From Archaeoglobus sulfaticallidus PM70-1 (GTDB taxonomy: Archaea; Halobacteriota; Archaeoglobi; Archaeoglobales; Archaeoglobaceae): 64,000 nucleotides of DNA. A model generated the notes under the pieces. That model worked only from the letters and a program-made list of their open reading frames with translations, was not told where the DNA came from and searched no databases. This document shows positions 24,364-28,818 of the stretch, in pieces. Each line of letters begins with the position of its first letter. The stretch's first letter is position 1. Both the position numbers and the translations under genes were made by a program. The DNA is taken from positions 62,001 to 126,000 of the forward strand of contig NC_021169.1 of assembly GCF_000385565.1 (NCBI RefSeq), written 5' to 3'.

Positions 24364-24906
24364 TCATAATTCGCTTTTAAAGCTTTTAAAGTAGTACTCT
24401 CTGTTGATCCACGGTATGAGAGCGTTTATAACTGAAATCCGTGTGAGATCCACTCTCGAGATCTTGCCCTTGGTCAGAAAGTATATCGCCCCTGTCTTCT
24501 CACCGAGGTTTTTTATCCCTGTAAGCTCGTCCATCACATCCCCAACCTCTCTCCCCTTCAAGACCTCCTCCACGACAAAAGGAGGATACTCAAATCCCGG
24601 GCCGAAGCCTATCGAAACCCTGCTGCCGTCATAGACTGCAGAAACCTGAAAATCTATGAATCCGGTAATCGTGTTTTTGAACGAGAACAGGCCAGCCTCA
24701 ACGCCTACTGCAAAATCGAATTCTTCTGAATAGCTGTTCAACGCCCTGTTTATCGCTCCCTCGATCGTTCTGTTATTGAACGGCTGGCTCTCAACACCAG
24801 AATCAACGCTTCTGGACTCAACTGTTACATCATCAAAGTACAGTTCAAAAGCCTGCTTAACCCCCTCAACCTTGAGCGGGTTCCTGGATCCAACAACAAC
24901 CCTCAC
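24364..24906 (-). CDS. Inosine/xanthosine triphosphatase (DUF84/YjjX family)
   Basis: 180 residues. Opening VVVGSRNPLKVEGVKQAF and later GVEAGLF and NLGEKTGAI are the conserved signatures of DUF84 NTPases, which hydrolyse non-canonical purine nucleotides (ITP, XTP) to protect nucleic acids. The start is GTG; no alternative fits the conserved first residues. Runs into the radical SAM gene with six bases between. Divergent from tmcA. Confidence 0.9.
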   Translation of the reverse strand: MRVVVGSRNPLKVEGVKQAFELYFDDVTVESRSVDSGVESQPFNNRTIEGAINRALNSYSEEFDFAVGVEAGLFSFKNTITGFIDFQVSAVYDGSRVSIGFGPGFEYPPFVVEEVLKGREVGDVMDELTGIKNLGEKTGAIYFLTKGKISRVDLTRISVINALIPWINREYYFKSFKSEL

Positions 24907-25013
24907 AGAAGGAGGTTAAGCCAGAGGTTAAAAAGGTTTTATGTCGGCAATTCGACAGTTAAAACCTGAAAGCACACCAAAAATTTTATGCAGGCTGGGT
25001 GGAGTTTAGAAGG

Positions 25014-27353
25014 ATGACGGAGTTAAAGCTCGCCGATCTGCACGAGGAGATCAAAAAAGCTACCGAGAAATCGATTAAGAATAATCACAGATTTATGGTC
25101 TTCCTATGCTCGGAGGATCACGATAGGCTGATTAACCTTTCCAAGAAAATTTTTGAGTACTATCTTAAGATATGCCCAGACTGCATACCAAAAGGCTTCA
25201 GGCTGTTGCTTGCTGGAAGGACGAGGTTTATTGAGATAGTAAACAACACCAATCTGTTCAATTTTGTGAAGAACAGAAAGATACACTTCAAGGAATCTGA
25301 AAATGTGCTTGGAGAGACCTACTCAGCACTTGTGATCGACCTTACGGAGGGCTTCAACCCGAACGATCTCGGAATAATCATTGAAACGATTGAGAAAGGT
25401 GGTATAATAATCGTTCTCTCACCTCCAGTAGATAAGTGGAATAACTTTATCAGCAAATGGCACAAGGAGCTTGTCAGCGAACCATACAGCATAGAAAGCG
25501 TTATTCCAAGGTTCTACAGAAGATTTATAGCCCACACATTAGAGGCTAAGGGAACGATCATATACGATGCAGATAAATCCAAGATCGTCAAGAGATTCCA
25601 GGAAGGACAGAGAGAAGATGAAAAGGAGATCGTCATTCCGGAGAGGAGGAACATAAAGAAGAAGCTGTACAAGCTATGCGCAACCCAAGATCAGGTTAAC
25701 GCCCTTTACGAGTTCGAGACTTTCTTTGACAGAAAGCGGGAGAAAAAGGTTGCCGTGATCACGGCAGATAGAGGGAGGGGTAAGACAGCGATACTCGGTA
25801 TCCTGACCCCCCATCTGATCTCCAGAATGCAGAGGGTTCTTAAAAGGGCTATAAGAATTATGGTGGTCGCGCAAACCCCTCAATCAGTTCAGACATACTT
25901 CAGATTTTTAACGATAGCCCTGAAGAGGCATGGTTTCGTTGATCACAAGATAAAGGAGTCCTCGGGAATGATTACCGTTGTCACGGGCAAACACCTTCGC
26001 GTGGAGTATGTTGTGCCGAGGAGGGCTATAGCAGAAGCCAGATATGCGGATGTCGTGATCGTTGACGAGGCTGCGAGCATAGATGTCAACACGCTGTTTG
26101 AAATCCTGAAGGACACAAGGTATGCGATTTTCTCGTCCACAATACACGGATATGAGGGCTCAGGAAGAAGTTTCAGTGTGAGGTTCCTGAAAAGGCTTGA
26201 GATGGATGAAAGCGTTGAGATTCAGAAGATAAGCCTTGAGGAACCGATAAGGTATGCCAAAGGAGATCCTATTGAGAGATGGCTCTACAAGACCCTCCTC
26301 CTTGACTCAAAGCCTGCTGCACTGAATGAGGAGGATATTGAAGCTATAAAGGATGGAAAGCTTGAGTTCGAGTACATAGATAAGGATGCGTTCATAGAGA
26401 ATGAGGATCTGCTCTACGACTTCTTCGGCATATATGTCCTCGCTCACTACAGAAACCGACCTTCAGACTTAGTCATCCTGTTCGATATGCCGAATCACAT
26501 CGCCTTCAGGGTTAGCGTTAATGGCAAAACAGTGTGCTCGCTGCATGTCGCTATTGAGGGGTCGATAGAGGAAGATGTGATAGCGAAGATGTCAGAAGGC
26601 TACAAACCAAAGGGTCAGATAATTCCAGATGTAGTGTTGAAACACCACTGGGACTACAGCTTTCCAAAATATAAGGGGCTGAGAGTTGTCAGGATAGCAA
26701 CACACCCTGATGTGATGGACATGGGGATAGGCACATTCGCCCTCAAGAACCTGCTTGAATGGGCATATACAGAGGGATACGACTGGGTTGGATCGGGATT
26801 TGGAGTATCCTCCGAGCTTCTGAGGTTCTGGAGCAGAACAGGGTTCATACCGGTACACATAACCCCTCAGAGGAATGAGATCTCTGGAGAGTACACGGTT
26901 GTCGTCATTCAGGGACTGAAGGATGAAATTAGGGAAAAACTATGGAGTTTGAACTCTGATTTTGTCAAGAGGGTTGTTGAATACCTTTCCGATGAGCTTA
27001 AGGATCTGGACTTCGAAACGGCATACCTCCTCCTGCATTCTCTGCATAAAAGCTACGATGCAGAGAAGCCCAAGCTGACAGAAACAGATGTGTCGAGGAT
27101 GGAAAAGTACATCGAGGGCATAAGCCTGTACGAGTATGTCTCCGACATTGCCAGACCCATCGTGAGGTACTACTATCTGTTAAGCGACAGCAATAGGGTG
27201 AAGCTGGATGAGCTCGAAGAGAGAGTATTAATCCAGAAGTGTCTCCAGCTGAAAAGCTGGTGGGAGTTTGAGGAGCTTTTGAAGGAAGGAAGGGTTTACA
27301 ACCTGATGCACTCGGCAATAGTCAAGATATGGAAGTGGTTCGTGTCAGGGTGA
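25014..27353 (+). CDS. tmcA: tRNA(Met) cytidine acetyltransferase TmcA
   Basis: 779 residues. Installs N4-acetylcytidine on tRNA, with ATP/GTP and acetyl-CoA. Domain order: N-terminal DUF1726 region (1-190), RecD-like helicase core with Walker A ADRGRGKT (251-258) and Walker B VIVDEAA, GNAT acetyltransferase domain (VRIATHPDVMDMGIGTFALK) and C-terminal tRNA-binding region. I place the start at the ATG at 25014, with GGTGGAG ten bases before; a GTG five codons upstream is open. An aaattttatg stretch about 33 bases before could be the promoter. Coupled to the ASCH gene downstream. Confidence 0.95.
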   Translation: MTELKLADLHEEIKKATEKSIKNNHRFMVFLCSEDHDRLINLSKKIFEYYLKICPDCIPKGFRLLLAGRTRFIEIVNNTNLFNFVKNRKIHFKESENVLGETYSALVIDLTEGFNPNDLGIIIETIEKGGIIIVLSPPVDKWNNFISKWHKELVSEPYSIESVIPRFYRRFIAHTLEAKGTIIYDADKSKIVKRFQEGQREDEKEIVIPERRNIKKKLYKLCATQDQVNALYEFETFFDRKREKKVAVITADRGRGKTAILGILTPHLISRMQRVLKRAIRIMVVAQTPQSVQTYFRFLTIALKRHGFVDHKIKESSGMITVVTGKHLRVEYVVPRRAIAEARYADVVIVDEAASIDVNTLFEILKDTRYAIFSSTIHGYEGSGRSFSVRFLKRLEMDESVEIQKISLEEPIRYAKGDPIERWLYKTLLLDSKPAALNEEDIEAIKDGKLEFEYIDKDAFIENEDLLYDFFGIYVLAHYRNRPSDLVILFDMPNHIAFRVSVNGKTVCSLHVAIEGSIEEDVIAKMSEGYKPKGQIIPDVVLKHHWDYSFPKYKGLRVVRIATHPDVMDMGIGTFALKNLLEWAYTEGYDWVGSGFGVSSELLRFWSRTGFIPVHITPQRNEISGEYTVVVIQGLKDEIREKLWSLNSDFVKRVVEYLSDELKDLDFETAYLLLHSLHKSYDAEKPKLTETDVSRMEKYIEGISLYEYVSDIARPIVRYYYLLSDSNRVKLDELEERVLIQKCLQLKSWWEFEELLKEGRVYNLMHSAIVKIWKWFVSG

Positions 27354-27358
27354 TGCAC

Positions 27359-27670
27359 ATGCAGAGCATCAACTTCGATTCAAAGTTCGTCGAGATGATC
27401 AGGCTCGGCAGGAAAAAAAGCACGATAAGAAGGGGAATAAAGATTTTCAGTAAGGGAAGTGTGGTTAACCTCACGAGCGATGGCAGGGTTTTTGGAAAAG
27501 CGAGAATTATTAAGGTGATCGTTAAAAGGCTCGACGAGATAGGAGAAGAAGATGCAAAGCTGGATGGATTTGAATCGAGAGAGGAGCTTTTTTCCGAATT
27601 GAAAAGGATTTATGGTTCCATAGATGAAAAAGAGTTTTTCACGATCATACATTTTGAGGTTATCGATTAG
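27359..27670 (+). CDS. ASCH-domain protein, possible N4-acetylcytidine amidohydrolase relative
   Basis: About 103 residues in the ASCH fold. The N-terminal signature GRKKSTIRRG aligns by eye with GRKTITIRDE of E. coli YqfB, which hydrolyses N4-acetylcytidine: the catalytic Lys and Thr positions are kept, while the glutamate position seems to be Asp (in LDGFES). It overlaps tmcA: an ATG lies in TGATG at the tmcA stop, and a second at 27359 has GGTGA five bases before. I use the second. Coupling with the enzyme that makes ac4C suggests a shared role; that is inference. ASCH proteins can also just bind RNA. Confidence 0.8.
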   Translation: MQSINFDSKFVEMIRLGRKKSTIRRGIKIFSKGSVVNLTSDGRVFGKARIIKVIVKRLDEIGEEDAKLDGFESREELFSELKRIYGSIDEKEFFTIIHFEVID

Positions 27671-27684
27671 GAGGATTGCTTAAG

Positions 27685-28818
27685 ATGATGTTCGATATAA
27701 TGGAGAAGCCGTTCATAATCTTCTGGGAGCTTACGAGAGCCTGCAAACTGGCATGCAAGCATTGTAGAGCGAAAGCTCAGAGAAAAAGACATCCAGATGA
27801 GCTCAATTTTGAAGAGGTAAAAAAGGTTATCGGCCAGATAACCGAGTTTAGCAAACCGTATCCGCTGGTTGTTATCACAGGCGGAGATCCACTGATGAGG
27901 GAAGATGTGTTTGATATAGTGAGGGAAGGAGTTAGCAAGGGGCTGAGGATCGCTATCGCATTCAGCGGTACGGATCTCGCTGACGAGAGTACACTCGAGG
28001 AGTTGAAGAGGGCTGGAGTTGCGAGGGTTGCGATAAGCATCGATGGTAGCGAGAAGGTGCATGACTCCTTCAGGGGAATTAAGGGAACATTCAGGATGTC
28101 GATGGACATACTCGAAAACGCCAGAAACATCTCGCTGTCAACCCAGATCAACACAACGGTCACTAACCACAACATAATGCACTTGCATGAAATAGCAAGA
28201 ATAGCGATAGAAAATGAAGTAACGCTATGGGATGTCTTCTTCGTTGTTCCAACAGGAAGAGCCAGGATGGAATACCTGCCAACATCACAGCAGTTCGAGG
28301 ACATACTGAACTGGCTTTACGATCTCTCCATGCTGAAAAATCTGAATGTTAAAAGCTCTGCTGCGACCCATCTTAGAAGGATCGAGATCCAAAGAAAGAA
28401 GGGTATTAAGTATGTCTCTGATTTCTATTTCAGATTGCTTGATGAGCTAAAGAGCCTCCCGGAAATGAAAGATGGAGGTAAAATAATTGGCCATTCCAAG
28501 AGCATAGCGATGGATGGAATAAAGAGAATGATGGGGATTACAGACGGAAGAGGAATGTTCTTCATAAGCCATATAGGCGAGGTCTATCCAAGTGGATTCC
28601 TGCCGATCAATGCAGGAAATATCAGAGAGATGAGCTTAAAGGAAATATACTGTAAATCAGAGATATTTACCCAACTGAAAAATCCAGATTTACTGAAAGG
28701 AAAGTGTGGGAGATGTGAGTTCAGGAAGATCTGCGGAGGTTCCAGAGCGAGAGCATACGCCATGTCAGGAGACTATCTGGCTGAGGAGCCGAGGTGTATA
28801 TATCAGCCTGAACATTGA
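27685..28818 (+). CDS. Radical SAM/SPASM protein (NirJ/AhbD-like, TIGR04053-like)
   Basis: 377 residues. The AdoMet-cluster motif is CKLACKHC (Cys20, 24, 27) followed by RAKAQ, then VITGGDPL and SIDGSEKVHD. The stretch DVFFVVPTGRA and a C-terminal cysteine cluster CGRCEFRKICGG mark the SPASM/twitch region, which would bind a second Fe-S cluster. The family is close to the alternative haem enzymes NirJ/AhbC/AhbD and to uncharacterised TIGR04053 proteins; I cannot tell which. Start ATG at 27685 follows GGAGG; a TTG three codons before is open. It begins 14 bases after the ASCH gene. Confidence 0.85.
   Translation: MMFDIMEKPFIIFWELTRACKLACKHCRAKAQRKRHPDELNFEEVKKVIGQITEFSKPYPLVVITGGDPLMREDVFDIVREGVSKGLRIAIAFSGTDLADESTLEELKRAGVARVAISIDGSEKVHDSFRGIKGTFRMSMDILENARNISLSTQINTTVTNHNIMHLHEIARIAIENEVTLWDVFFVVPTGRARMEYLPTSQQFEDILNWLYDLSMLKNLNVKSSAATHLRRIEIQRKKGIKYVSDFYFRLLDELKSLPEMKDGGKIIGHSKSIAMDGIKRMMGITDGRGMFFISHIGEVYPSGFLPINAGNIREMSLKEIYCKSEIFTQLKNPDLLKGKCGRCEFRKICGGSRARAYAMSGDYLAEEPRCIYQPEH

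Follow-up and report, generated by a model that had tools for sequence, protein, structure and literature searches.

The question raised by this locus is whether a small ASCH protein encoded in overlap with tmcA removes the acetyl group from N4-acetylcytidine (ac4C), the modification written by TmcA. Some hyperthermophilic archaea carry large amounts of ac4C in their RNA, and TmcA is to our knowledge the only ac4C writer in these organisms. The locus lies in a 64,000 nucleotide stretch of the genome of Archaeoglobus sulfaticallidus PM70-1 (a single contig of 2,076,931 bases), referred to here as the window. A first-pass annotation had suggested that the two genes form an ac4C module, in which a relative of the E. 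coli ac4C amidohydrolase YqfB is produced together with the writer.

The tmcA product is an ac4C writer: the helicase domain of the NAT10/TmcA type, the GNAT domain and the TmcA_N domain are all present, and all Pfam scores exceed the cut-off (PF05127 183 bits, PF13718 138 bits, PF08351 124 bits). The ASCH gene does overlap the tmcA stop codon as had been noticed, the A of its ATG being the final base of the tmcA TGA. The extent of 27351-27670 initially given for it is correct at its end, where the frame closes with TAG, but not at its start, since 27351 belongs to the tmcA stop codon and the ATG follows two bases on. The product of 12 kDa matches the ASCH profile with 57.1 bits (gathering cut-off 21.2) and is a single small domain lacking any further RNA-binding module. 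Coordinates are summarized in Table 1. Divergent from tmcA lies a gene for a DUF84 inosine/xanthosine triphosphatase (24364-24906, minus strand), and a radical SAM/SPASM protein gene (TIGR04053, 450 bits, cut-off 395) is located directly downstream of the ASCH gene at 27676-28818. A wider operon was rejected: the DUF84 NTPase gene is not kept at other linked loci and the TIGR04053 gene directly follows the ASCH gene solely in the genus of the window.

Table 1. Position of the tmcA-ASCH gene pair and of selected codons in the window.
Feature	Coordinates	Strand	Remarks
tmcA, NAT10-type RNA cytidine acetyltransferase	24999..27353	+	784 aa, GTG start as called, complete
TGATG stop/start overlap of tmcA and ASCH gene	27351..27355	+	sequence
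ASCH protein gene, predicted YqfB-like pocket	27353..27670	+	105 aa, PF04266, AlphaFold2 model
GRKKSTIR codons, residues 19-26, including Lys21, Thr24 and Arg26	27407..27430	+	numbering of YqfB GRKTITIR
D67-A-K-L-D71-G-F73 codons, in place of YqfB His70 and Glu74	27551..27571	+	alignment
Tyr87 codon, in place of YqfB Tyr89	27611..27613	+	Tyr in 54/54 tmcA-linked sequences

We assessed the linkage of the two genes in Archaeoglobi, other Halobacteriota, Hydrothermarchaeota and Thermoproteota, with Methanococci, Methanobacteria and Thermococci left out. The pair recurs in all of these groups, mostly with overlapping frames. Among 59 Archaeoglobi genomes the ASCH gene is present in 56 and TmcA in 58 (both in 43 of 43 good genomes). 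In 37 of them, for which the loci were read, tmcA is located directly upstream of the ASCH gene on the same strand; a 38th (G017) shows this arrangement by coordinates alone, and in another (G015) tmcA lies at a distance of about 1.5 kb. In 16 Archaeoglobi genomes (genera g11 and g12 and five genomes of g13) the genes are apart or there is no tmcA beside the ASCH gene. The pair was also found in three further Halobacteriota (G170 of family f7, G158 and G182 of family f26), in every Hydrothermarchaeota genome that carries the short form of ASCH (seven of seven, with Ca. Pyrohabitans as the named examples), and in seven genomes of Thermoproteota. Of the linked loci, 50 have a usable start codon in range, and in 47 of these the ASCH frame opens before the tmcA stop codon is complete.

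When 18 linked loci from three phyla were compared, TmcA and ASCH were the sole protein groups common to all; the remaining large groups checked were frames that run antisense to tmcA. The genes flanking the pair are mostly ordered differently from phylum to phylum, indicating that the pair is either kept by selection or travels as a unit. The check for linkage beyond this genome, for which the first-pass annotation had called, thus turned out in favor of a genuine association. An accidental adjacency or a merely inherited gene order, with which the separation of the genes in 16 Archaeoglobi genomes would agree, can hardly be the explanation given the overlapping starts and the exclusive sharing of these two genes at all 18 loci; chance does not account for a recurrence in three phyla. 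It is therefore very probable that TmcA and the ASCH protein act together. A single clean origin of the linked group was not recovered: the well-supported branches of the tree of about 100 columns demand at least four changes of linkage, and the tree is poorly resolved. No member of the ASCH family was found in the viral contigs searched, and in the open-access literature searched, outside of which most subscription papers lie, we found no description of a link between ASCH and TmcA.

The distribution of the ASCH family was compared to that of TmcA in 371 sampled genomes, with a profile E-value below 1e-15 considered as a good ASCH match. TmcA was present in 84 of 86 genomes with a good match versus 46 of 285 without. 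The same pattern is seen in Thermoproteota (48/49 versus 25/151, many of the ASCH proteins counted being of a longer, unlinked form), in Hydrothermarchaeota (9/10 versus 0/13) and in Halobacteriota (27/27 versus 21/121, 24 of the 27 being Archaeoglobi). The corresponding Fisher values are tiny, yet they overstate the case because the sampled species are related. Many genomes possess TmcA and lack the ASCH family: the family almost requires TmcA, whereas TmcA has no need of the family. Such a pattern is expected of an accessory protein that requires ac4C.

YqfB (NF003443; 9kyf, 9kyh, 1te7) is the closest characterized relative by several measures. It has 103 residues, compared to 105 here, and the same ASCH fold. 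It was the best PDB sequence in a profile search (E=0.0037), and in a single BLASTP comparison the two proteins are 26% identical (E=2e-4). The AlphaFold2 model of the window protein (mean pLDDT 95.3, 37 sequences) matched YqfB 9kyf best of all solved structures (E 8e-8, TM 0.86/0.88), and the ac4C complex 9kyh was also among the YqfB matches, at TM 0.86-0.88. The predicted structure is thus YqfB-like. Behind YqfB followed EF3133, PH0355, ZmASCH and TRIP4. ZmASCH (5guq), a ssRNA-specific RNase of Zymomonas mobilis with the residues Tyr47, Lys53 and Ser128, shares the ASCH fold and the GxKxxxxR motif but is a weaker fold match, its entries giving TM 0.62-0.71 when normalized to the query length. 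For an unlinked Thermoproteales ASCH protein used as control (L109), YqfB was the top match too, but at TM 0.71/0.81 and with ZmASCH close behind. The curated NCBIfam model for YqfB, NF003443, is matched by 33 of 37 family members and is the only NCBIfam model matched by most members; the window protein scores 25 bits against a cut-off of 93. Three tmcA-linked Thermoproteota members tested did not match this model. The tmcA-linked members are basic, with a mean net charge of +5, while YqfB is acidic with -7. However, this was ruled out as proof of RNA binding, the charge of the window protein being ordinary for its region of the genome.

Proper alignment agreed with the comparison previously made by eye: GRKKSTIR occupies residues 19-26 in numbering identical to GRKTITIR of YqfB, and Lys21 and Thr24, as well as Arg26, coincide. 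The supposed glutamate position is Asp71, corresponding to Glu74 of YqfB. Tyr87 takes the place of the substrate-contacting Tyr89, while His70 of YqfB is replaced by Asp67 and Asp27 by Arg. In YqfB, alanine mutants of Lys21, Thr24 or Arg26 are inactive and loss of Tyr89 impairs activity (PMC6972931). The kcat on ac4C of 157 per second drops to 0.07 in E74A and to 23 in H70A, i.e. about 2000-fold and about 7-fold according to the table of that paper; it is not lowered in D27A, and both Glu74 and His70 are 100% conserved among YqfB-like proteins (PMC6972931). With the curated cut-off, Glu74 and His70 all failing, full membership in the YqfB family was rejected.

A set of 132 non-redundant archaeal ASCH sequences shows no variation at Lys21, Thr24 or Arg26 and only Asp or Glu at position 71; Tyr87 is nearly invariant. 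All 54 tmcA-linked sequences keep Lys21, Thr24, Arg26 and Tyr87; position 71 is Asp in nearly all of them and Glu in two f26 sequences, and the position of His70 is usually Asp. The archaeal family has thus kept the three residues essential in YqfB and the sugar-contacting Tyr, has exchanged Glu for Asp and lacks His70. Lys and Arg alone carry little information because GxKxxxxR is common to ASCH proteins including the RNase ZmASCH (PMC5615036); Thr24 in combination with the acidic residue and Tyr is more telling. A YqfB-type ligand pocket in the window protein is supported by the predicted fold and this conservation, and a TmcA-coupled ASCH family with such a predicted pocket is well supported.

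The pocket residues are no signature of tmcA linkage, as they are common to unlinked proteins and to a family of ASCH-HTH paralogs, and by themselves they are no proof of ac4C activity. The only position that tracks linkage is Asn7, found in 53 of the 54 linked sequences. Most unlinked Thermoproteota have R, V or S instead, and Asn is rare in the long form. Unlinked Archaeoglobi retain Asn7 and are presumably recent separations. The ASCH-HTH paralogs of about 180-210 aa (L064-L072 and L164-L192, e.g. L070:7219-7752) occur in most Archaeoglobaceae, though not in the genus of the window, and in many TmcA-bearing Thermoproteota. They share Lys21, Thr24, Arg26, an acidic residue 71 and nearly always Tyr87 with the linked group, but lack its typical Asn7, are not linked to tmcA in the loci read and carry an extra C-terminal domain, which was HTH-like in one of three tested. 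Two of three paralogs tested match NF003443 at 34-37 bits, i.e. higher than the window protein. They are possibly regulators sensing a modified nucleoside. In two Thermoproteota genomes (L202:6095-7083, L203:5681-6616) a gene for an ArsR-like HTH protein is followed on the same strand by an unlinked short ASCH gene. The other ASCH protein of A. sulfaticallidus (L002:1480-1845, G000:C1 at about 1050.5 kb; 121 aa, GLKTQTRMVW) does not have the Arg position of YqfB and matches no NCBIfam model; its gene is located downstream of a radical SAM gene of the glycyl-radical-activating type.

Our main reading, to which we assign a probability of roughly 45%, sees in the ASCH protein a TmcA-dependent accessory for the deacetylation of ac4C, with the free nucleoside or nucleotide as the probable substrate. 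The protein would share a transcript with TmcA by way of the overlapping reading frames, would bind ac4C in its YqfB-type pocket and would hydrolyze the acetyl group. Thr24 would act as nucleophile and Lys21 as base, Arg26 would hold the oxyanion, Asp71 would take the role of Glu74 and Tyr87 would contact the sugar. The substrate would most likely be ac4C released as nucleoside or nucleotide when RNA is turned over; a free substrate is preferred over RNA because YqfB-type enzymes bind no RNA (PMC9599836). Cytidine may thereby be returned to salvage and acetylated nucleotides kept from building up. Of the module proposed in the first-pass annotation, the TmcA link (recurrent overlap and co-occurrence), the YqfB-like predicted fold and the Lys, Thr, Arg and Tyr residues hold. 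Its interpretation is thus supported in part; the replacement of both Glu74 and His70 by Asp, the low profile score and the presence of the pocket residues in unlinked ASCH proteins speak against a simple transfer of YqfB function.

The overlapping genes also suit a physical partner, since interacting proteins are often encoded by overlapping frames, and an RNA-binding partner of TmcA accounts for the linkage nearly as well as an ac4C hydrolase. Such a non-catalytic protein would present tRNA, rRNA or other RNA to TmcA, acting like Tan1/THUMPD1 for Kre33/NAT10, and its pocket would hold cytidine or the acetylated product without hydrolysis. The co-occurrence agrees with this reading just as well, most domains of the PUA/ASCH group, which includes ASCH, bind RNA (PMC7641849), and the tmcA-linked group is net basic. 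Tan1/THUMPD1 with Kre33/NAT10 or TkNat10 provides an example of a small RNA-binding-type helper of the ac4C writer (PMC9957541), a likeness that holds if the protein is indeed a partner; the Tan1/THUMPD1 fold is THUMP plus ferredoxin-like, not ASCH. Since the sole THUMP match in this genome is ThiI-like (L233:1084-2115, minus strand), no Tan1/THUMPD1-type adaptor was detected that would already fill this role. On the other hand, the invariance of Thr24 and Tyr87 in the linked sequences answers no obvious need in an RNA clamp, as these residues are catalytic or substrate-contacting in YqfB. Several haloarchaeal-type genomes of one Halobacteriota family possess TmcA and neither this ASCH nor a THUMP match, so that a partner is not obligatory, and g11, g12 and most g13 genomes have lost the linkage while keeping both genes. 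We regard the role of a non-catalytic partner as less likely than ac4C hydrolysis, but as the strongest of the alternatives.

It is improbable that the protein acts on RNA itself, either as an eraser of ac4C in tRNA or rRNA or as an ac4C reader. The presumed co-production with the writer and a surface that is basic compared to YqfB are in line with such a role, and TudS/RudS show that a family of nucleoside-level enzymes can have a relative acting at the RNA level (PMC11417400), but a single small domain and the lack of nucleic-acid binding by YqfB-type enzymes speak against it. More doubtful still is a role in handling a different modified nucleotide or in regulating the expression of tmcA, with the likeness to YqfB reflecting no more than common ASCH ancestry. 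The modest identity to YqfB, the pocket residues in unlinked paralogs, of which some carry a putative HTH domain, and the existence of an RNase among ASCH proteins (PMC5615036) would be compatible with this; against it, the family is tied to ac4C by its near-exclusive occurrence alongside TmcA.

With respect to the wider biology, TmcA and a divergent, YqfB-like ASCH protein may form a dedicated, co-translated ac4C writer-plus-remover (or writer-plus-partner) module in several archaeal phyla, a proposal that we make tentatively and would put somewhat below even odds. If RNA is its target, the ASCH protein would be the first eraser of ac4C in archaea. Based on the overlapping genes and the near-exclusive co-occurrence with TmcA in three phyla, the TmcA-tied ASCH family is a concrete candidate for the removal, recycling or control of ac4C in archaea.
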